Origin: Crossaster papposus
Lineage: Eukaryota; Echinodermata; Asteroidea; Velatida; Solasteridae
Direction: 5' to 3'
Assembly (NCBI GenBank): GCA_037893245.1
Contig: JBAIAA010000890.1
Location: forward strand, 1,054,001 to 1,118,000
Length of the DNA: 64,000 nucleotides
Shown here: in pieces, positions 47,535 through 63,880 of the stretch
Layout: every line of letters starts with the position of its first letter
How positions within the stretch are numbered: the stretch's first letter is position 1
Position numbers and translations under genes: made by a program
Notes under the pieces: generated by a model
Seen by the model: only the letters and a program-made list of their open reading frames with translations
Told to the model about the DNA's origin: nothing
The model's database searches: none

Positions 47535-50500
47535 CATTGATCTCCATATAGACTGGATAGGACAACGCGTATGTGTTTGTGCACAAACGCGTGATCCGAA
47601 ACAATGGCGGCGTGCTTACTGCAGCGGGTAAACGCGGCATGTGTATTCACTCTGGAAACTAGTCAAGTAGTTATCGAGTTAATCGGATTTTTTTCGTATG
47701 GGGGTTATAAGGAACTTAAGCGCTCTACCAATAAAATCATTAAAAAACATTAAATTAACTAACGAATAACGATAGGGAGTCATGCAGACCTAACACAGCC
47801 AGCTTTTTCACACTTTCTTGATATGTAGGCCTAGGTCTACTATTTTTTTCCTGTAATGTAGCCTACACTTTTGGCCCTTCCCTGAACCTGGTTTCCAGTA
47901 TATTGCTCTTTTATTTTACCACCCCTATAGGTCGTTTCATAGTTCAGTTGGAGACAGACACAGAGTGAATTTAATGGTCGTATTGAATTTCTAAAATGAC
48001 ATAGAACACTCATAGGGCATACAACCATGGAAGAACGAGATTGAACCGCACAAGAACAATTATATTTATATTTTAAATGCAAAACAAATTTATTTATAAA
48101 CAGCAATACAAAAAGCAAAAATTAAAATCATTTAAAGTGGAGTTACTTATATAAACATTCAAAATTATAAAACGATGACGACAACTGAATTAATGAAGGA
48201 ATGTTATTCAAAACTTTTGCACCAGCATACTTATACGACTGCTTAAACAAATCAATATTGGGTTTATTTAGGGAAAACGAAATTTAAAGAGCAGCATTTC
48301 TGGTATTAAAGCCATGTCTATCGAAATACATTTCAATGTCATTACAAAATCTAATTAGAGCAATCCCATGAACACATTTATACATTGAACAGGCTAAGAA
48401 GAAATCTCTTCTTATTTCTAGAGTTTGCCAAGTAATTGTTGAATAATGTCTTTGCCATGATAATTAACATAGTCAAAATTATTAGAGACAATCCAAGCAG
48501 CTCTTTTTTTGCAATCTAAGAAGAGCCTTTTTACTGGTCAGGGAACAATTTTCCAACACGGAACAAGCGTAGTCAAAACATGGTTGAATGTCCGTCTTAT
48601 AAAGAGTGTCAAGTAACTGACTATATTAATAGTATGTCTAAGTCGGGATAATAAAAATACATGTACTTTGTAGGCAATTAATTTACAGAGATTTCTTACA
48701 TGTGGTTTCCAAGTGAGGTTATTATCAACTTCAAATACCGAACAGTTTACTTGTTCAAGCTGGGTGCCTTCACTCAAGAACAATATTCAATTTGTCAGAA
48801 TCGTTAGTTTGGAGGAGATTGCAAAAGCATGATTTTAGTTTAATTTTGATAAATGCACGAAGTCTATTATTATTATACCAAGTAAAATGTCTAAAATATT
48901 AGATTGTAACACCCGGTTTGTATCATGGACATTATTTCCTGTCACATAAATAACATCATCATCTGCGAAGATATTACAAGTACTAAAATTAAAATTGTGT
49001 GAAATGTCATTAATAAAAATAATGAACAATATAGGACCTAGTACACTCCCCTGTGGAACCCCAACAGTAATATCATTAGAGTTGGATAATTTATCATGGC
49101 AACTCACAACTTGTTTCCTATTTAGGATGTAATTCGTAAACCATTTATGTTCATTACCTGACGCACCGTACTCAGTTTAAAAATAAGAGATCATGATCAA
49201 TGGTATAAAAACCTTTAGATATATCAAGAAAACAAGAGCCAGCAACCTCATGTTAATTAAAAGCTTCATACAAATCATCAATTACACGATGCAAGCTAAA
49301 TTAAGTAGGATTAACAAAAATGCAAACTGATCAACATTAATCATATCATTATAGATTTGTGTAGTTCGAGCAAACTTCCAATCATCTGCAACAAAACCAG
49401 TCACGAGGGACATAATAACAATGTGACAAAGAGACTTATGAATATAAGGAGAGGCTAATCTCAGCAATTGGTATCAAAATAAAGAACATCCAAGTTGCTG
49501 TCAATTAATGATAAGATGAGATGAAGCGTAAACAATTGTATCATCTGGTTTGTGAGTGCATTCAGGATTCTTCCAATTCAGAGGGTTCTGTGAACGATTC
49601 AGAACGATCCAGACAGTAAAATAATAAATTATTCATATCAACACAATTTAGATCAGGATGGATACTCTTTACATACTTGCTATTACCTGTAACTTTATGA
49701 ACTTCTTTCCATTATTGTTTAGGGGAATTGTTGTACTTTGTGGACACCTGATCGAAATAATCACGTTTAGATTTCATAATAGACATGACAAGATTTCTGG
49801 TCTTCTTATACTCAGCTAAATGAGTCACGGCGATTTTTTTTAATTGAATGAGCTTTTAAAAATGATACAAATCCCTCTTATACATCAATTTAATAATACA
49901 AGAGGTCATCCAGGGACAGTAATCTCAGCTCTGCCCATCGCTTCAGTTTAGGTTCGTCTTCTTTCTCCAGGACCTGTAGCCTACAGCATTCTGACTCCAA
50001 ATGGTTTGAGCACACTGACCGCAGCCAGCTGCAGCTCGGTGGCAATACAATGTGGACGTCTTACAGTTACACGCACATGTCACCGCTTTCTAGCCGGTTG
50101 TTTTTCTGAGGAAATTAGGTGGGAAATAACTCAAAATTAATCAAACAATATAGGCCTACGCATTTTGGTTATTTACTTATTAAGTAGGCCTATTGCTAGG
50201 CCTAAATAACAGGCAAGTTTTACAAGGGTGCAACTCGAATGCATTTAAAAAAATGTTTTTCAACGGACTCTCTGCAATTCGAACAACTTAAACGTCGATT
50301 TGTCGCCGTACTCTGAAGCTACGGGAAATAATAAAGCGTCCGCGAGTGTGTATATACACTAGACCATACATTTACGTAACATCAGTAGTAGCAGTAGCAT
50401 CAAAAACGACTTACTTGTAAAATAATAGTCCATATTCCCGACTCAATGGACATCCTTCTCCGGGCACTTCACTGCTGCGCAGACCATAACCATTGTTCTT

Positions 50501-50710: not shown

Positions 50711-50718
50711 GTGGGCAG

Positions 50719-51915
50719 GCACGGCTGTTTCGAGCGTTTAAAACAGCGCCCTCAGTTGTTCGAATTTAGCCAGGCTAAAAAATGTCCGTTGCGGGTCGCG
50801 ACTGTTCACTGCATTTGCATTGTACAGAGCTTTATGTCAAATGCAAATGTTGACCTTTGACCTTTAGCGGAATTGTAATCGGTAGATCGGCAATTTGAAT
50901 ATGCAAGTTCCTTTAAATCCTTATTTGGTCAATATTTTGTGATGTCATACCATTTGTGGGCATATGATTGGCTTATTTTTGCATTAAAAGAATCGGGATC
51001 GACGACGTGACTCTCGTGGAAAAGTCCAGAAACTACGTGTGATGTACGAAAATTCTCCAGAAACAGCAGATGTTTTCGTTAGTTTTGAAATTTTTGAAGG
51101 TCAAAACCAAAGTTACATCGGTGAATGGAGATATTTATCGGAGGGTGTTATAAGAGTAAGTAGCGGGCAATGGCAATTTAGAGGAATATTAACGGTTTTG
51201 TTCCTAGCAATTAGCATTTTGCGACAATTGTTCAGATTGTCGTGCGCTGTATATCACATCATGTATAGTTTGCACGTGTTTGTGTACGTACGGTACATGT
51301 AATTTGTACATGTGTACATGTAATGTATGTATTTACAGGTACGTGCACTTTAACATAGGCCTAGGTGATTTTCTCATGCGTCATACGTACATCAAAACAT
51401 GTTGAACTCGGACATGCAACTATTTAAAATACACATAGAACCATAGAGCAAGGAAGAAACTACACTATTGTTTAATTGTGTTATTGGTAGGCAAAATGAT
51501 CATGTTCCTAACATAATTCAGCATATTACTTGTAATAATATTAAATGTTAAAAAAACTTGCAACCTCAGATTTCTAAATAGGCATCTCAGAAAAGGTCAG
51601 GCTTTTGCACAATGTGGAAAACTAAAATAAATAAATTTGGGACTGATCAATGTGTTCAATTTTGTGAGGAGGATCTTGTACTTGTAGGCCTTGTAATTTA
51701 ATATTTGTTTTAATCCGTTTGTTTGTGCTAAAGTTACTTTTTCTTTGTGAGGACACGTACGTTTGCAAAACAGTATTGGCTCAAGACAGACTTTTTAATT
51801 TTGTTGCTTCATTTTCACATTGAAGGAGCATATATCAATGTGAATTTTATATTTTTAATTGGAATAACTTGTTGCTATCATATACATTATTATGCTCCTG
51901 TGCTATATTCTTCTT
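50719..51915. other. stretch left of the RAG1-like gene; one possible short exon
   Basis: No kelch-type or other RAG2-like sequence is visible. A plus-strand start at 51039-51042 gives about 40 codons (YENSPETADVFVSFEIFEGQ and on) that run into a GTAAGT donor at about 51155. No following exon was recognised. CATGTAC-type repeats occur at 51275-51330. The AATAAATAAAT near 51627 on the other strand is unremarkable. Confidence 0.3.
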
Positions 51916-54900
51916 TTAATCTTCCTTTTTGCATGACGTCTGGATGCACGCCCGTACTTCGGGCGTAGTTGTGGTGTGATGACGTCGCATGATGCTGAGT
52001 AGCTTCTGGAGCGGATCTCGCATACCTTGAACAACTCGTCCTGCCCTGTTAAACTCAGTATGTACAAGTTCCCCTCCCTGTTCGTTAAGAAGACCAAACC
52101 CTACTTTGTACATAGCAAGCTGCTGTGTTGCATGGTCTTCCAGCATATGCATTTTGGGGCTGATGTTTACACTTGGAAATGAGGACCTGAAGCACCGCAT
52201 AAATTCTCGAATGCTGACATCTACAACAGAGTGCAAACCAAATGAGTTTATAATAAACAGACTATCAAGAAAAGTTAAATGGTGAAATAAGAAGATAAAA
52301 CAAAGTTGAGCTGGATAAGTAAGTATCTAAATAATAAAGCTACATTTTGAGTTAAAATTACAGTAGGTAAGCACAACTCAAAAGTATGAACACTTTTTTC
52401 ACAGGTGTAGCTCCCTGGTATATGCGACGTTTTGATGAATTCAACTTTGACTAGCAAGTAACACCCGAGGTCAGAAGAACGCAAGATAAACAGACCCAAC
52501 TGAAGAGGAGAGACCAGCTTGAGTAGGTAGAAGATAACCTTATTTTGCATCAGCTGCATGGTCGCAGACAATACAGGGTGCCAACACTTACCAATTTTCA
52601 TGTTGTCCTCGGGTGTGACTGGATTTGTGTGATTTATTCCATTATGAATATCAGCAAACTTGAGAAAAATTTCCTCAAATTTGTTACAGATATTTGCTGC
52701 TTCCCGACTTAACCTTTCCATTGCAGCAATGGGAATGTCATCAGATTTTGTGCTTGCAACAATTTTTGATGGCACAGATGTTAAATCTTTGATGACGTGT
52801 ACCTGTAAGCAAACAATTAAAATAATAATACAAATAATAATATTTATGCGGAATTACTTAATGCAGCTCAATATGCATTGTACCGACAACACACTAAAGC
52901 CAGTGCTCACCTGACAACACTTATGAACATGATTTCCCACGAAGGATTTGCCATGATAGGCTTGTCGGCAAACCTTGTGTTTGACGAGAGCACCATCAAG
53001 ACTGCTGGCTATTGGTCCTGTACCAAAAGGGAGCTGTGCGTTTTGGGATTGTTCCTTAAAAAAAAATATAAAAACAAATTATGACATGTGAACACATTGT
53101 TTTTACATGTTGTTTATGTGCATACTTGAAAACCACATGTATGTGAATAAGTGTAAACAATCCATATTTGAATATATCTCACCAAGTCATTAATCTCAGC
53201 TCGAAGTTGCCCAGCTTTGTGGATAGTCTCTCTGAATACATTGTTTGCATGACCTTGTAGCTGATGGAGAGGAAGGTCATCCCCTAACTGCTCAAGTTGA
53301 TCCCTCTTCATTTCAAGGCGAGTCTGTACATCTTGCTGTCTGTTGAACTCAGCTGTTACAGCATGGTCAAAATTGTTTTCATCATCATTGTCATCTGCAC
53401 CCTCAACTCGCAGCTTAAACAACTTAGTGTCAAGATTGTGGCATTCCAGCTCGTACCGGTCAAACAGCTTCTTGAATACTCCAAGTGAGATGTGCAGGCT
53501 TGGCAAAATAACCTGTTTTTCATAAGGTAACAAACATAAACATTAACAACAAAAATTGATATACATGTACTTGTGCAGATAACTTTGCAGTGACATGTAC
53601 ATGCATACTTTAGAGAGAGATTCAGATTACTGTAGTTTACACGTACATGGTCAATGTCGATGTTCAGCACTGGGGAATCGATGACACTGAAGGATACATC
53701 CTTGGCTCTGTTTCGTCTACAGCCATCTTTTACAAAAAGATTGTAGTTGTGGCGTATAGACTGAAGTGTCCTATTGGTGGATGAACCCCTGTCATCAATA
53801 GGCTTCTGCATCATTTCCTTGCTGGCCAAGCAGTAAAGGCAACAGTATCAAGCTTTTGGGAAAAACAAATTTGAAAAGGACCAATACTTAAAATGCTACT
53901 TTACACATTAAATGGAAAAACAATGGAAATGCACAATGTACACATTTTATGCATTACCATTTGCTCCATTGATGCCAAACAGCTTCGTTAAGAGCTCGTA
54001 GTCACCGAAGCAGAACAGATGAATGGTGTGCCCTCTGAAAATAATAAAAAATGGATAGCCAAAAATGAATTTGCATGACACCATATTGATAATGTCTGAT
54101 TAAATCGGGTAGAGTTTTCAGCAACAATACGTACATCACAAAGATCCACAGGTCAATCTTAAAAATACAAAGAAACCAAAAATGAGAAAAATTGGAACTT
54201 ACTTCCATTGTCGTTCACTCAGTTTGTTGATCTGGCTGGTGATTTTTGGCAATGTTCTTTTCAAATTCTGGATGGAGTAATTGCCCTCATTGACGATTTG
54301 ATATTCCATCTTAAAAGATGAACCACCTTTATCACCCCCAATTTTGACCCAAATTTCACTTGGGGGAATGACACCATTGTGCCAGGTCAGAGAGCCACAC
54401 CTGTAAAAGCATATCAAACAAAATTAAAGCAATCAGTTTTTCTCAAATTTATGTACATGTATGTACATCTAGTTTATTATTTTGATACTTACTCGTGCAG
54501 TCTGTCAAGGTAATCAAACACGTACCATCTTGCCAATATCATTCACGTAGGCATAGGGTACCATCCGTATTTCAAAGCCTCGAGCCGCATCGGCTTTAGT
54601 ACTTGGAAACATCAACTCCACCATCTCTCCCTCTAGATAGTCCTTTAGTAGCTCCTTCTGCTGACTTCTCATTGACCTTTCTGATGGTATTGTCGATCCA
54701 ACATACCTGTCACATAAAGACATATTTGAAAAAAAACAGATAAATTTGAATGTACATGTCACATTTTAGAACATTAAAGACTTATTTCATAAAATAATGT
54801 TGACATTTAATACTAATTTTGTCTAATGTACTTTTATTTTAGATAGATGAAATGGTACCTACCTTCGTATTTTCCTGACCTGGTCCCATGCGAGGTGGCA

Positions 54901-55068
54901 GTCTCTCATCATAGCCAAGGCTCTGTTTGCTTGCTGTTGTTTGGACGTGGAAGTTGAGGTCTTTTGACTTTCTTGTGTGTCACTTTTTTTCAGTATTTTC
55001 ACATTGGAACAAGGTGCATCACATTCTTGCTCTCGCTTGTTTTTAGACACCTGTTGAATATGTGCAGG
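51916..55068 (-). pseudogene. RAG1-like DDE transposase, catalytic core exons
   Basis: Exons: 54863-55068, 54493-54706, 54203-54400, 53958-54034, 53647-53852, 53183-53512, 52911-53054, 52592-52802, 51916-52221, all GT-AG. First Asp: VKIGGDKGGSSFK (codon 54331-54333), matching RAG1 D600. Second Asp: FCFGDYELLTKLFG (54001-54003), matching D708. A CCLYC zinc pair follows, then LPSLHISLGVFKKLF, LVKHKVCRQAYHGKSFVGN with HVHKCCQ, and Glu in NEQGGELVHTEFN (52069-52071), matching E962. So the DDE triad and the C2/H2 zinc elements are present. Lesions: a one-base frameshift near 54524 (DIGKM to YVFDYLDRL) and an in-frame TGA at 53848-53850 that a C-to-T change in CGA would explain. The end lacks the long vertebrate C-tail. 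The core could be RAG/Transib or CMC/Chapaev type. Confidence 0.85.
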
Positions 55069-55207
55069 CTGATGGGGAAAAGTTAAGAGTGGACTAATGC
55101 AATTTGTATACAAACTAGTGAATAACAGTTAGCTCGCATTGTAGTAAACACTACCAAATATATGTATCGTTATGAAATTGTTGCGATTTTAAATCTCTAT
55201 TTCTTAC

Positions 55208-56244
55208 CCGTCCTCCTGTGTTCAAAGTTGCCTCTTTGTTGAGCTGTTGTAGCTTCAGCCATGTCCACGTGTCAGTTGAACGCTCTATTTCATAAGGAAT
55301 TGGTTGTCCCCTTTGGTGTTTAAGTGCCTCCTCTCTTAAAATTCTTGCTGCGTTTATCACTGATAACGACTCTGATAACGATTCTTGACTATTTACAAAA
55401 TCATGCGACCTGACAATTTTCACCTTTGGTAGAGGAGTTGGGGGATTTTCACAAGTATGATAAACTATTTTTTCAAATTTCTTTCCAATTTTGTTGCACT
55501 GGGTACAAACTAGATGTAAGTTGTTTAGCTGTACATTAAGGATCCTAGAACTGCGGGATACTTGGTGAAAATCAATCTGTTCCTTGCATACCGGACATGG
55601 TACTTCCAACTGTTTTTGGAACTGAAAGTACTTGGTGAGGCACTCTACACAAAAATTGTCTTCACAAGGAGACTGCAAGCAAGGGGATGGCAATAAACAA
55701 AGACAGATGGGACATGTAAAAAGTGAATGTTCCTCCCGTCTTCCAAGTATCTCGACGTATGGATCAGACTCGGTGACATGCCAATAATGTCAAAGAATAT
55801 GTTGTTTGATACGGCAAAAAATGGTAGATCATTGAGTAAGCTGGATGAAAATTGTTTTCCAACAACTCGTTTCCTTTTAGGGGGTCGTCCAGCTTTGAGT
55901 GATAGTTCGAACCGTTCACATACAGCACAACTACCAACTCTATGGTGTTTTGCCCAAACTATTTCAGGTCTGCTCACATTAGTACTGTAATCTTGTGTTT
56001 GTGCCTTGTAGTGCCTTACTTTCCTGGAACAGTTTTCACAGAGAGAATTGGGGTGTTGATCTTGGACATCATTCCATGTGCTTATCTGAAAGACAGCAAA
56101 AATGTCCTTCCTGTTGTCCTTGCACAAAGTGGGTCCTTGTTTTGCGATTGTCAGTTGCCTGGCTGATGCAGTTCTACCCCCACATACTCGACACAGTTTA
56201 GAAATAATCTCTCTGTGGTGATCAAAACTCCAAGCTCTGTACAT
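55208..56244 (-). pseudogene. RAG1-like N-terminus: RAG1-type zinc motifs plus RING finger
   Basis: The minus strand starts MYRAWSFDHHREIISKLCRV. It follows the order of the RAG1 N-terminal region: CRVCGG, FAVFQISTWNDVQDQHPNSL, CENCSRKVRHYK, SCAVCERFELSL, then the basic RPPKRKRVVGK, as in the importin-binding part of RAG1. Next comes a RING-like finger, CPICLCLL, CEDNFCVECL, PCPVCKEQ, and a further CTQC...HTC pair as in the zinc dimerisation domain. The exon ends at 55208 with CGG|GTAAGA, in phase with the core exons. The two halves are in different frames: the switch lies about 55760-55800, and no AG-bounded intron explains it convincingly, so it looks like an indel. In RAG1 this part supports ubiquitin ligation and nuclear import. 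Confidence 0.82.
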
Positions 56245-56641
56245 ATTTAGCCTTCAGCATAGCAAAACTTGTAAACCGTAATTTATAATAAAATAGTAAA
56301 TTATAGTAACTTTAATACCAAGAACAAATTTACGTGACTGATTTTGTGTGTTGACCCTGCCTCTTGCGCGTGGAGCATATACGTACATGTACGTACGTAC
56401 ATGCGTGTACATGTACATGTACGTGTTTAAACTTCGCGCGCTATGTCTGTGTATGAGGAGCTCGACCAGTGGAGTCAACTCGACCGGTACTGGAACAGTG
56501 CACGATGCGCCGCGCCACGTCGGTCTCCTGCATCATGCATGCAGCCGCGTGGCCGTCGCGCACCGCGATGTGTTCCGTGGCGCATAACATGCCGTGCATG
56601 CCATAGAGCTATAACAACATATTTTATTTGTAGCTCCACGC
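56245..56641. other. upstream flank of the RAG1-like gene
   Basis: Probable 5' flank and promoter of the minus-strand gene. It contains a dense ACGTACATGTACGTACGTAC run (about 56382-56427) and a GC-rich block at 56490-56600. I found no terminal repeat matching 50719-51900, so the borders of any RAG-type transposon are not defined. Confidence 0.4.
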
Positions 56642-57367
56642 CAGGGGGGGGCGGAGGGGGGGCCCTTCGAGGCTGTGATTGCGAAACGCTGGGGTACCGT
56701 CCATTCTCAAAATAGGGGGAACAATTTTCTCACGGGAAAAATTAAGAGTTTTTGGCATCCAATCTTAAAATCTTGTCTTTTGTAGTTGTACAACGTTGTT
56801 ATTTACCTTAATTTTTATCATCCAATGACAACATTTGTATTGAAAATGAAAAAAAGCAGTCGAAATTTTTTTACGTTGACGTACCGTTGATGCACGTAGA
56901 GATTGTGCACAAATACTCAAACGACGTTGACAAATACCTCCCCTAAAAAGGGCAATAATAATCGATAAATTGTGAAAAATCGTGCTTCGAACCCACTCAT
57001 TTTTTTCCATTGATACGTTAAAAAAGGATGTAGCAGTGATATACTGAATTTTTAAAAAAATCTGCCTGTGAACCCCTTGCGTTTTATCGTGTTGTTTTCG
57101 AACGAAAATAGCAGAAAATGACATCGCCCCAACAAAAATTCGTGTAGATCGTGCCTGTGTACCTGGCTTTGCGGACGTTGCATGAATCACTGAAATCGGG
57201 TAGCGAGCGCGGAGAAAATTTGTACGTGTTTCAATGGTGCGCTTCGCGGTAGCGATCTATACGTATTTACTGTGTGAGATGTGTGGCTCATGAGCGTGGA
57301 AGAATGAATGAGATACATTTCAACGTTGGTGGCGCACTTTGTTGGGCCCCCCCTCCGCCCCCCCCTG
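56642..57367. mobile_element. 726-bp hAT-type MITE with G-rich ends and 8-bp duplication
   Basis: The left end CAGGGGGGGGCGGAGGGGGG pairs with the right end CCCCCCTCCGCCCCCCCCTG. CTCCACGC flanks both sides (56634-56641 and 57368-57375). CAG/CTG termini and an 8-bp duplication fit hAT. The interior has no transposase. The G-rich ends could form quadruplexes. Confidence 0.85.
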
Positions 57368-57375
57368 CTCCACGC

Positions 57376-58154
57376 CTGGTCATGCCTGCAATAGATTCGT
57401 GCCTAAAATAGGCAATACTACACGCTGGCGCTACGCTGTTAAACAAGTCGAAGTCGATTTGTATCGACGGTCGAGTTGTCTCAAGTCGAGTTTTCCCAAC
57501 GGTCGAGTTGTCCAAATTTTCTGTGTATATAGTTTTTGCGAAGTCTCCACGCGAAATGAATCGTGATTTTTTTGGGAAACCTTTGCCCGTTTTAAAGAAA
57601 TTGCGTCATTGCCCGCCTAATTTTGTTCAATAAATTTACAAAATAGGTCTTTCTCTGCCTGTAACTGAGTTTTTATATTTTACATAAATCTACAACTGTA
57701 AGAAAATAGGCTTTCAAAACAACACTAAACGTTAATTGGTTTTTTTCGAATTCTGTTGACTTTTTACGAAAGTTAAGGTTTTAAAGTTCGTTTAATACAA
57801 TTTTTCCACACAAAAAAGACACGATAGTATCAAAAGATGAAAGAACTCTTAATGTTTTAAAATCAGCGCCGACTGAAAAAGATATATTCAAAGGTTTGAA
57901 GGTGTAAAATTGACTAAGAAAGTAATTTTTCGTCGTTTGCTTTAGCGGCAAAGTGAGTCGCCATGTTGGTGCGTGACGTCACGCTTCATCACTGGAGTAA
58001 TGTTTGTGCAATTATTTGAACAATCGCACCAAAGGAACTTGTTTACACACTGTCTATGGCGGCAGGACAGCCGTGCAGGCCGGCCGGCTTGCCGGCCTAC
58101 GAACCCTAGCGCGCGCCGCGCCTGACCGGGGGCGGGGCGGCGCAGCCTACCCTA
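57376..58154. other. non-coding stretch, no gene seen
   Basis: It contains three GTCGAGTTGTC/CAAGTCGAGTT words near 57440-57510 and a GTGACGTCACGC palindrome at about 57974. A GC-rich patch (58070-58150) includes GGCCGGCCGG. Neither strand has a recognisable coding segment. Confidence 0.4.
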
Positions 58155-58638: not shown

Positions 58639-58818
58639 TAGGCCCCGTGCTCCTAACATTGTAGGCGTCTGTATGCAGGTCGTTGTACTAGCAATCGACG
58701 ATCTCGTTCGTGCTGGCGTACTACGTATGAAGCTTGAAGTACATAGTTCATGCAAAATGATGCAACCCCCTTCCCCTCCGTCAGTTTGGTGTTTGCTTGT
58801 GATAGTGATTACCTTTTT

Positions 58819-58910
58819 GGCTTTTTCGCAATTTTGCGAAAAAGCCTTTGTTTTTGTTCTTATTTTTTTTTTTTTTTTTTTTGGCTTTTTCGCAATTTTG
58901 CGAAAAAGCC
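58819..58910. repeat. two GGCTTTTTCGC hairpins followed by T tracts
   Basis: GGCTTTTTCGCAATTTTGCG closing with AAAAAGCC forms a perfect stem-loop at 58819-58846 and again at 58883-58910. Each is followed by TTTGTTTTTGTTCT and a long T run. Two further copies with shorter loops are at 61319-61344 and 61379-61405. It resembles a small hairpin repeat spread together with the A/B array. Confidence 0.8.
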
Positions 58911-58957
58911 TTTGTTTTTGTTCTGATTTTTTTTTTTCTTCTTTTTTTTTCTTTTAG

Positions 58958-61421
58958 TAACCTTAACCCCATAGACTTTGTGCACGTTTTTTTGCACAAG
59001 TACTTTTACCAGAAAACAAAGTCGTATTTCCATAAAACTTAACCCAGGTGAAGACCCTATAGTGAACTCGTGTCTCGCAGAAATACGTCATGGTGACGTC
59101 ATCAGGGGTCACGTGACGTCATCTTAAAGGTGTAATTGATTTAATCTTTGAAATTCAATAACAAATCAACCCCAAAAGACCGAAACTAAATTTTTGTGGC
59201 AATAGATAGAATAATCCAGGATCTTCATTTTATCTCGTGTGCGTGAAATCACGTGACCCTTCCTTCCGGTCTAAACCGGAAGTGCCTCATAATTTGAAAG
59301 TGAAAAATGATATGAACTTACTTTCAACGATGTTAGTGTCTGGCTACAATGTATTTTTCAAAAAAAATATTGGTGACGTCATAACATGTTATAGCGCCCT
59401 CTAGCGGCAGTTTGAAAAATTGTTAAAATGAATAATCTGTTGATGTGTGTGGCGAAGTTTGCTGAAATCACTTTATAACCGGTGTATTTAATCAGCTTCA
59501 TGCTAGGAACAAGTTGACGGGAAGAAAAAATTATGACGTCACCAGACCGGAAGTTAGAATGAAAAGACTCGTTTTCCTTTGAAAATTCCTAAAAAATTAA
59601 ACCTGACAGATACAATCTTGATTTTTGCTCTAAAGGTTAATGTAAAAGTAGTTCTCGAACTTCCCTGTGTTTTGGGGCACAAAACGAACTTGAACATACC
59701 CTGCGGCACCCTTGAAATGTAATCGTTTTGGCCTAGGTGCAAAAAGCATTGACCCCTTACGTGTGCATGGCACCCGTATAATATACATGCTAGTACATGT
59801 ACGTATACACTGATAGTGTATTATGTATTGAGCGAATGTATCACCACTGACATCGTTGGTGCAAGCACATGTACGCTTACCCAAGAGGACACTAGCCGCC
59901 AACCTGTGAAACAGGATGACGTCATCAAATTGCCCATGGGGAAGGGCGCCGCGTACGACAGGTAGGTAAACACGCTTTCGGCTACGCAGAATCCAACCCC
60001 GTAGACTTTGTAAACGTTGCTTGCACAATTCAAAGCACTTTTAACGGAAAAACAAAGTCGTATTCCCATAAACTTGACCCAGGTGAAGACCCAATAGTGA
60101 ACTGGTGTCTCGCAGACAGACGTCATGATGACGTCATCAGGAGTCACGTGACGTCATCTTAAAGGTTCAATTGATTTTATCTTTGAAAATCAATAAAACA
60201 TCAACCGCAATTGACCGAAACTTGAATTTTGTGGCAATTAATAGAATAATCCAGGATCTTCATTTTATCTCGTGTGCGTGAAATCACGTGACCCTTCCTT
60301 CCGGTCAAAACCGGAAGTGCCTTATAATTTGAAAGTGAAAAATGATATGAACTTACTTTTAACGATGTTATTGTCTGGCTAGAATAAACTATTCAAAAAA
60401 ATTCCGGCGACGTCATAACATGTTATAGCGCCCTCTAGCGGCAGGTTGAAAATGGTTAAAATGATTAATCTGTTGATGTGTGTTGCGAAGTTTGCTGAAA
60501 TAACTTTATAACTGGTGTATATAACCGGAAGTTACAATAAAAAATCCTTTAAACTGTAAAAAGTCGCTTAAAAATCAACCGCTATAGATATATCCAGATT
60601 TTTGCTTCAAATAGCAAAGTTAAGACTGATCTCGAGTTTCTGTTAATTACGTCACGATGACGTCATCAAGTGTCAGATTACAAGCAACCAAATATTTCTA
60701 AATTTAATCTTTGAAAATCAATATAAAATCAACTGTAAGAGATCTGATTTAGATTTTTAAGGAAATTGATAGATTAATCCATGGTCTTCATAATTTGTAT
60801 TACATGCAAAAAGACCTGACACTTCCTTCCGGTCCAAACCGGAAGTGCCTTATAATTTAAAAGTGGAAAACGATGCTAACTTACTTTCAACGATGTTAGG
60901 CGCTGGCTAGGTTGTAAGTAACGAACAAGTTGACGGTGACTTCTTAAAATGTTATAGCGCCCTCTAGCGGCATGGTTGACAAATGTTACACCATATTACG
61001 ATTATATTTGAATTATTACGTTTTTAGACGTTGAAGGCATATCTCAGAAACGGATCGTGTTAACATAACACCTCATTTTGTGTTGTTAGGTGATAGATAG
61101 TTGCACAAAAAGTTCACAAACGTGTGACGTCATCGTTTTAATCAGTTTTAATTCATTTTACTCTGTTTAAATTAACTTAAATTAGTTTTCAATGATTTTA
61201 AATTGTTTTGATGGTTTAAAAGTTCAATTTTTGAAATATTTAATAAAAAAAAATTGCGAATGCGAAAAAGCCCTATGTTCTGTTCCTCGAACAGACGTAG
61301 TTCTAGTTTTTCTTTTTTGGCTTTTTCGCTTGAAGCGAAAAAGCCTTTGTTTTTGTTCTGATTTTTTTTTTTCTTTTTGGCTTTTTCGCATTTTGCGAAA
61401 AAGCCTTTGTTTTTGTTCTGA

Positions 61422-61452
<31 letters not shown>

Positions 61453-63880
61453 TTTTTTTTCTTTTAGTAACCTAAACTCCATAGACTTTGTACACGTTTT
61501 TTTGCACAAGTACTTTTACCAGAAAACAAAGTCGTATTTCCATAAAACTTAACCCAAGTGAAGACCCCATAGAAAGCTCGTGCCTAGCAAACATACGTCA
61601 TGGTGACGTCATCAGGGGTCACGTGACGTCATCTTAAAGGTGTAATTGATGTAATCTTTGAAATTCAATAACAAATCAACCGCAAAAGGCCTAAACTTGA
61701 TTTTTGTGGCAATAGATAGAATAATTCAGGATCTTCATTTCAACTCATGTGCGTGAAATCACGTGACCCTTCCTTCCGGTCCAAACCGGAAGTGCCTTAT
61801 AATTTAAAACTGAAAAATGATATGAACTTACTTTCAAAGATGTTAGTGTCTGGCTAGAATAAACTTTTCAAAATAATTACCGGCGACATCATAACACGTT
61901 ATAGCGCCCTCTAGCGGCAGGTTGAAAAATGGTTAAAATGAATAATCTGTTGATGTGTGTGGCGAAGTTTGCTGAAATCACTTTATAACCGGTGTATATA
62001 ATCAGCTTCGTGCTAAGAACATTATTGAGAAAGAGATTTATTGATGACGTCACCAAACCGGAAGTTACAATGAAAAGACCTTAACACCTTAAAACGTCGC
62101 TTAGACTTTGTACACGTTTTTTTGCACAAGTACTTTTACCAGAAAACAAAGTCGTATTTTCATAAAACTTAACCCAAGTGAAGACCCTATAGAAAAATCG
62201 TGTCTCGCAGACATACGTCATGGTGACGTCTTCAGGGGTCACGTGACGTCATCTTAAAGGTGCAATTGCTTTAATCTTTGAAAATCAATAACAAATCAAC
62301 CGCAAAAGGCCTAAACTTGATTTTTGTGGCAATAGATAGAATAATTAAAGATCTTCATTTCAACTCATGTGCGTGAAATCACGTGACCCTTCCTTCCGGT
62401 CCAAACCGGAAGTGCCTTATAATTTAAAACTGAAAAATGATATGAACTTACTTTCAACGATGTTAGTGTCTGGCTAGAATAAACTTTTCAAAATAATTAC
62501 CGGCGACATCATAACACGTTATAGCGCCCTCTAGCGGCAGGTTGACAAATGGTTAAAATGAATAATCTGTTGATGTGTGTGGCGAAGTTTGCTGAAATTA
62601 CTTTATAACCGGTGTATATATAATCAGCTTCGTGCTAAGAACATATTGAGAAAGAGATTTATTGATGACGTCACCAAACCGGAAGTTACAATGAAAAGAC
62701 CTTAAAACCTTTTCTGTTAATTACGTCACGATGACGTCATCAAGTGTCAGATTACAAGCAACCAAATATTTCTAAATTTAATCTTTGAAAATCAATATAA
62801 AATCAACTGTAAGAGATCTGATTTAGATTTTTAGGAGAATTGATAGATTAATCCATGGTCTTCATAATTTGTATTACATGCAAAAAGACCTGACACTTCC
62901 TTCCGGTCCAAACCGGAAGTTCCTTATAATTTAAAAGTAAAAAACGATGTGAACTTACTTTCAACGATGTTAGGAGCTGGCTAGGTTGTAAGTAACAAAA
63001 ATGTACATTTTTGTTGTTTTTCTTTTAGTAACCTAAACTCCTTAGACTTTGTACACGTTTTTTTGCACAAGTACTTTTACCAGAAAACAAAGCCGTATTT
63101 CCATAAAACTTAACCCAGGTGAAGACCCTGTAGTAAACTCGTGTCTCTCAGACATACGTCATGGTAACGTCATCAGGGGTCACGTGACGTCATCTTAAAT
63201 GTGCAATATATTTAATCTTTGAAAATCAATAACAAATCAACCACAAAAGCCCTGAACTGGAAGTTTGTGGCAATTGATATAATAATGCTGGATCTTCATT
63301 TTATCTCAAGCGCGTAAATTCACGTGACCCTTTCTTCCGGTCAAAACTGGAAGTGCCTTATAATTTGAAAGTGGAAAATGATGTGAACTTACTTTTAACG
63401 ATGTTAGTCTCTGGCTGAGTTGTACTATTCAAAACAGTTGCCGGTGACGTCATAACATAGTATAGCGCCCAGGTTGAAAAATAGTTAAAATGAATAATAT
63501 GTTGGTGTGTGTGGCAAAGTTTGCTAAAATCACTCTACATAATTGATGTATATAATTAGCTTCATGCTAATAAGTTGAAGGAGAGAAACATTGATGACGT
63601 CACCAGACTGGAAGTTACGACAAAAAAGTTAAACCTTAAACAATTGCTGCAAAATCAACCGCGTACGATATAATTTAGGTTTTTGCTTCGAATGGTAAGG
63701 TTAAGACAGTTCTCGAGCTTTCTGCTATTGTCGTCACGGTGACGCCATCAAGTATCAGATTACAAGCAACCAAAGATATTTAAATACATTTTTGAAAATC
63801 AATATAAAATGTGATAAAAGATCTGATTTTGTTTTCTACGGGAATTGATAGAATAAATAAGGGTGTATTTTGTATATTAC
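58958..63880. repeat. A/B repeat array rich in CRE, CACGTG and ETS-type sites
   Basis: A-type units begin near 58958, 59990, 61468, 62101 and 63020 (each about 570-630 bp; they open ...AGACTTTGTACACG and carry GGTCACGTGACGTCATC). B-type units (about 290-340 bp) begin near 60640, 62710 and 63720 with ACGTCACGATGACGTCATCA. Both types share TTCCTTCCGGTCCAAACCGG, then AAGTGCCTTATAATTT, and most A units also have AGCGCCCTCTAGCGGCA. The order is A A B A A B A B. Units differ by a few percent. No conserved reading frame runs through them. The array continues to the window edge. Confidence 0.85.
61440..61460 (+). repeat. long T tract before an A unit
   Basis: After the fourth GGCTTTTTCGC hairpin a T-rich tract runs from about 61421 to 61463, with single C interruptions, and the A unit follows directly. 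The same order (hairpin, T tract, CTTTTAGTAACC, A unit) is seen at 58911-58965, showing that hairpin and A unit were copied together. Confidence 0.7.

Follow-up and report, generated by a model that had tools for sequence, protein, structure and literature searches.

Zinc-binding and RING motifs in the order known from RAG1, placed in front of a DDE transposase core in starfish DNA, raise the question of whether such a gene belongs to the RAG transposon lineage or joins a RAG1-type front end to a related transposase. We analysed 64,000 nucleotides of Crossaster papposus (contig JBAIAA010000890.1, positions 1,054,001 to 1,118,000 of the forward strand; hereafter the window), in which the gene lies on the minus strand. 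It very probably belongs to a cut-and-paste DNA transposon of the Chapaev type (CMC group) that is present in many copies, the one in the window being decayed; the class is assigned from the published Chapaev hallmarks and not from comparison with named Chapaev sequences. The original prediction had offered both answers; a CMC/Chapaev transposase with a RAG1-type N-terminus was borne out, whereas the RAG transposon lineage was not, given a 4-bp target-site duplication and no match to the RAG1 core.

Element ends and class assignment

The predicted range, 51916..56244, is exact for the coding part, but the mobile unit is larger:

50720..58075, minus strand, whole Chapaev-type element of 7356 bp, with CACGGC...GCCGTG ends, identical 4-bp flanks and ends like those of 18 relatives
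58076..58079, target-site duplication CCTG, 5′ side of the element
50716..50719, target-site duplication CCTG, 3′ side of the element
58067..58075, minus strand, 5′ terminal inverted repeat CACGGCTGT
50720..50728, minus strand, 3′ terminal inverted repeat (complement of CACGGCTGT)

A genome-wide search for further copies, called for by the original prediction, found at least 106 stretches matching the N-terminal part in the 1.02-Gb genome, a lower bound that counts stretches, as some copies contribute two. Twenty copies (L021-L040) were taken for comparison, and their mutual alignment gave exact ends. All 19 copies with both ends (18 of the 20 relatives and the window copy) carry CACGGC/GCCGTG ends and a duplication of exactly 4 bp; the duplications vary in sequence, and in none of the 19 did any other length from 2 to 9 match. 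Outside this count are L040, whose second end was not located, and L035, whose ends were found only by using the duplication as a criterion.

Published descriptions give Chapaev elements a duplication of 3-4 bp, ends that are invariably CAC/GTG, and the motifs C(2)C, LH and H(4)H (PMC4079192). In the window element the ends read 5′-CAC ... GTG-3′ (CACGGC/GCCGTG), the duplication of exactly 4 bp falls within the 3- to 4-bp range, and the three motifs occur as CLYC, LHISLG and HMLEDH, in columns that are invariant or nearly so in alignment A1. As all printed hallmarks are present, we place the element in Chapaev proper. Chapaev3, with a 3-bp TWA duplication (PMC4079192), was ruled out by the 4-bp duplication of varied sequence.

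The ends also bear on whether the locus could be a true RAG-family (TransibSU/RAGL) transposon, encoding a RAG1L with a RING and thus representing the missing direct-ancestor type of vertebrate RAG1. The RAG1-like N-terminus and the RAG1-like core fold described below would agree with this, as would the presence of these N-terminal fingers and RING in mollusc and amphioxus RAG1L (PMC7204232). In RAGL transposons, however, the duplication is 5 bp long, without exception in protostomes and nearly always in deuterostomes (PMC7204232), whereas we found 4 bp in 19 of 19 copies and 5 bp in none. Moreover, the ends CACGGCTGT depart from the protostome RAGL consensus CACTWMCAAAC after CAC, and the core has no significant RAG1 or Transib match, although RAG1 and TransibSU cores are more than 30% identical (PMC4411706). 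No RAG2-like kelch match was found in 16 open reading frames of at least 60 amino acids outside the gene, a scan that did not cover opposite-strand overlapping frames or spliced genes. Because of the 4-bp duplication and the missing RAG1-core match we reject a RAG transposon, which is very improbable.

Within families the aligned stretches are about 97% to more than 99% identical (above 99% for L026-L028 and for L039/L040); these near-identical copies suggest recent movement of the families. Such close relatives would allow tests, outside RAG, of what the zinc domain and RING do in transposition. Selection on exon 1 gave no readable signal, as differences are too few within families and saturated between them. 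L028 and L038, from two different families, are inserted on two contigs into tandem repeats of the same kind, at the same position; matches to this repeat are spaced in 43-bp steps, both 5′ flanks end in TACAATCGGCATATCCCT, and the duplication is CCCT. Separately, a distant relative of the N-terminal domain, 31% identical, lies on the window's own contig about 3 kb to its left (G000:C890:1050730-1051086).

Gene anatomy and lesions of the window copy

The coding part runs on the minus strand from a start codon at 56244 to a stop ending at 51916, in ten modelled exons with GT/AG borders:

55208..56244, minus strand, exon 1: N-terminal zinc (Chapa) domain, RING, next finger and GGR; one frameshift
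55918..56193, minus strand, RAG1-like N-terminal zinc domain (CRVC ... CENC ... CAVC), from the RAG1_imp_bd match and the relatives' profile against PDB
55855..55890, minus strand, basic stretch GRPPKRKRVVGK
55586..55714, minus strand, RING finger (zf-RING_2 at E=7.2e-5; PDB RING matches)
55451..55507, minus strand, post-RING zinc finger C-x2-C ... H-x-C, its C, C, H and C columns invariant in the 14 rows of alignment A2
54863..55068, minus strand, exon 2, whose first residue is the P of GGRP
54493..54706, minus strand, exon 3: one frameshift near 54525; end placed by comparison with relatives
54203..54400, minus strand, exon 4: first catalytic Asp (GGDKGG) at 54331-54333
53958..54034, minus strand, exon 5: second catalytic Asp (FGDYE) at 54001-54003
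53647..53852, minus strand, exon 6: in-frame stop at 53848-53850; C-x2-C zinc half-site at 53830-53841
53183..53512, minus strand, exon 7: LH motif; helical insertion
52911..53054, minus strand, exon 8: RQAYHGKSFVGNHVH
52592..52802, minus strand, exon 9
51916..52220, minus strand, exon 10: H-x4-H at 52132-52149, catalytic Glu (EQGGE) at 52081-52083, stop

Every motif predicted for the locus was found on these exons, on the minus strand and in RAG1 order: CRVCGG, CENC, CAVC, the basic stretch GRPPKRKRVVGK and the RING (CPIC/CVEC/CPVC), followed by GGDKGG, FGDYE, CCLYC, RQAYHGKSFVGNHVH and EQGGE. The conceptual read-through, with X at the breaks, comprises 962 residues, and since a protein search aligned it to an Asterias amurensis protein with 46% identity at 99% coverage, the motif set is far above chance. 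Furthermore, a 382-residue protein piece of Patiria miniata is 76% identical over 380 columns.

The gene is not intact. Frameshifts interrupt exon 1 (at about 55770-55790, where relatives keep one open frame) and exon 3 (near 54525), and an in-frame stop lies at the start of exon 6. Nor, contrary to the prediction, is the DDE core complete: in addition to that stop, a stretch of 16 residues is missing between the first and the second catalytic Asp, which all three aligned starfish proteins have. The window copy is thus decayed and makes no working transposase; with both ends kept, it could at most be mobilised by the enzyme of a relative. A coding sequence that is long and conserved, with 46% identity to a starfish protein at 99% coverage, might instead point to a host gene domesticated from such a transposon, but the two frameshifts, the stop and the 16-residue gap, together with transposon ends and duplication still in place and many related copies, leave this with next to no probability.

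The N-terminal region and RAG1

The single-sequence RAG1 signal of the N-terminal part is weak. The window piece exceeds the cut-off of Pfam RAG1_imp_bd narrowly (23.7 against 23.3 bits) and scores 20.4 bits with zf-AD, below the cut-off of 28, while the RING matches zf-RING_2 at E=7.2e-5 with 23.4 bits, below the curated cut-off of 27.3. Among 14 relatives scanned, RAG1_imp_bd matched in five at E<=1 (best 4e-7) and zf-RING_2 in 12. When a profile of these 14 relatives was searched against 177,635 distinct PDB sequences, the top two matches were full-length mouse RAG1 at E=2e-24, with profile positions 6-271 aligned to RAG1 101-377, so that a single alignment spans zinc domain, RING and the finger behind it. 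The RAG1 N-terminal domain alone (21wb_A) was matched at 7.9e-11. Together with the Pfam match, this profile result upholds the predicted RAG1-like N-terminus: judged by profile comparison, the front end is of RAG1 type, its zinc domain, RING and post-RING finger being homologous to those of RAG1.

The RING part alone matched RAG1 best in PDB (1.6e-13), narrowly ahead of a RING2/BMI-1 chimera (1.5e-11) and TRAF6 (2.9e-11); by structure, RAG1 ties with TRAF6 in a structure aligner and ranks below LNX (LNX2) and TRAF RINGs in Foldseek. What points specifically to RAG1 is the zinc domain and the domain order. With the N-terminal model P0018 (mean pLDDT 69.0), which barely probes the zinc domain, no RAG1 N-terminal domain chain appeared among the 50 best rows. 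For comparison with the nonamer-binding domain, GGRP is present, and a profile of the GGRP region (alignment A3, 10 rows) had no PDB match at E<=10.

The catalytic core and its relatives

Structure comparison with the core of a homologue indicates that the core fold is a distant relative of RAG1/Transib. A direct sequence link to RAG1 was dropped for lack of a significant match: the window core did not match the RAG1 core family PF12940 at E<=1, and a chain search with the core gave no significant RAG1 or Transib match, the one chain at E<=5 being a proton-ATPase subunit (E=1). In the animal's own genome PF12940 had no match either, but neither had the controls of that search, so this result carries no weight. 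The second stretches aligned between the relatives' profile and mouse RAG1 scored -0.6 to 2.6 bits and placed the FGDYE/CxxC region at about RAG1 696-747. Alignment A1, whose N-terminal columns are largely gaps, retrieved no more than 7 proteins when used as a search profile, and in PDB it matched mostly RINGs, with RAG1 chains from E=0.0012.

Protein searches found core relatives in sea urchins, sea cucumbers, starfish, Hydra and the sponge Ephydatia. In the core tree the window groups with two Asterias proteins (100/100); 24 of 39 database proteins and the window were entered, and P0017, P0022, P0026 and P0027 were dropped (core motif not found), leaving 21 rows. The tree contains no RAG1, Transib or named Chapaev and places the window among its relatives only, not among families. 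Domain content was scored in the 39 proteins with our own profiles, built with the use of P0001, P0002, P0004, P0014 and P0016. In these five, and in P0027, P0028 and P0032, zinc domain and RING are both combined with the core or a part of it. RING and core occur without the zinc domain in P0006 (Patiria), P0023 (Hydra), P0029, P0030, P0033 and P0034 (sponge) and P0031, while P0013, P0025, P0026 and P0036 have zinc domain and core but no RING match; the missing parts may be exons overlooked in gene models or truly absent.

This distribution bears on a late, lineage-specific fusion, in which an echinoderm Chapaev core captured a RAG1-type N-terminus independently of RAG1 ancestry. Thirteen of 16 homologues are named echinoderm proteins, and many database models have no N-terminal zinc domain, as such a capture would lead one to expect. 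Nevertheless, RING and core are joined also in the Hydra (P0023) and sponge (P0029, P0030, P0033, P0034) models, all three parts are present in P0027, P0028 and P0032, and one alignment shows the domain order, post-RING finger included, in common with RAG1, which renders a late fusion improbable.

Known systems and possible mechanism

The combination found here is known already. The N-terminal part of RAG1 has been named the Chapa domain, and Chapaev elements with Chapa domain and RING were reported by Kapitonov and Jurka 2007, as cited by Kapitonov and Koonin 2015 (PMC4411706); from the occurrence of Chapa and then RING in two Chapaev subgroups, that paper proposed that a common ancestor already had the entire fusion. 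The window element shares with these Chapaevs the Chapa zinc domain, RING, DDE core with C2C, LH and H4H, CAC ends and a 3-4 bp duplication; it differs in its host, in being broken and in the core-less derivatives described below. RAG1 and RAG1L (TransibSU, ProtoRAG, RAGL) agree with it in the succession of zinc domain, RING and post-RING finger and in the core fold, whereas neither their 5-bp duplication nor a RAG2L partner nor the RAG1-core sequence family was found here. Transib (HzTransib) differs in that its canonical form has the core as its one identifiable domain and makes 5-bp duplications (PMC4411706, PMC7204232). Contrary to the expectation that the locus would bear on how RAG1 acquired its N-terminus, a broken copy of an architecture already published (PMC4411706) adds nothing new by itself; it supports, and does not change, the published idea on RAG1 origin. 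What it provides is independent support that a RAG1-type front end was joined to a RAG-like catalytic core already in Chapaev transposons.

Intact relatives would encode a transposase that cuts at the CAC ends with its D, D and E residues, a split C2/H2 zinc site presumably holding the fold, and the cut ends would be joined to the target with a 4-bp stagger. The zinc domain and RING may be accessory or regulatory, and the RING could, by analogy with RAG1, act as a ubiquitin ligase which tunes the level or the partners of the transposase.

Core-less derivatives

Core exons were matched in 11 of the 20 copies (L026-L028, L033-L040), and the remaining nine (L021-L025, L029-L032) are core-less, the core being deleted from the first catalytic Asp through to its end. 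Compared with full-length L039, they retain 2.3-2.8 kb at the 5′ side, where the zinc-domain/RING exon lies, and about 0.85-1.4 kb at the 3′ side, and their ends and duplications are perfect in nine of nine. There are four deletion joints: one in L022 and L029-L032, one in L021, one in L023 and one in L024 and L025. Joints common to different sites show movement after the deletion for L022, L024, L025 and L029-L032. Exon 1 is open over 374 codons in five of the nine; L029-L032 share 30- and 11-bp deletions in it that break the frame. That these frame-broken copies also multiplied speaks against a need for the truncated protein in spreading.

Core-less derivatives would offer a simple origin for transposons consisting of the N-terminus only. 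N-RAG-TP of Aplysia (Panchin and Moroz 2008, via PMC8355894) likewise carries RAG1 N-terminus-like sequence in a transposon, but is said to consist entirely of such sequence, and so resembles the core-less L021-L025 and not the window copy. We therefore raise, as a tentative and rather unlikely proposal, that core-less zinc-domain and RING transposons arise recurrently by internal deletion of full Chapaevs and then multiply, that N-RAG-TP is one of them, and that RAG1 inherited its N-terminus with its core. If so, N-RAG-TP would be a Chapaev derivative needing no separate donor, and N-terminus and core of RAG1 would come from a common Chapaev/Transib ancestor without later capture. Core-less copies might then have spread through a truncated protein that remains active, as a repressor or ubiquitin ligase for instance.

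Nested and neighbouring sequences

The 5′ part of the Chapaev element contains a further insertion:

56642..57367, minus strand, nested 726-bp hAT-like non-autonomous element, CAGGGG ends

Its inverted ends read CAGGGGGGGGCGGAGGGGGGGCCC, and the 8-bp sequence GCGTGGAG is duplicated on its two sides, at 57368-57375 and 56634-56641; we call it hAT-like because of its CAGGGG ends and 8-bp duplication, which we take to be hAT hallmarks. Near the Chapaev element, a reverse transcriptase fragment at 48835-49176 (RVT_1, 39.5 bits against a cut-off of 29.6) is probably a retrotransposon remnant. Two similar stretches at 58781-59005 and 61303-61515, with long A/T runs and with translations that both start KYLCKKTCTKSM, represent a repeat.
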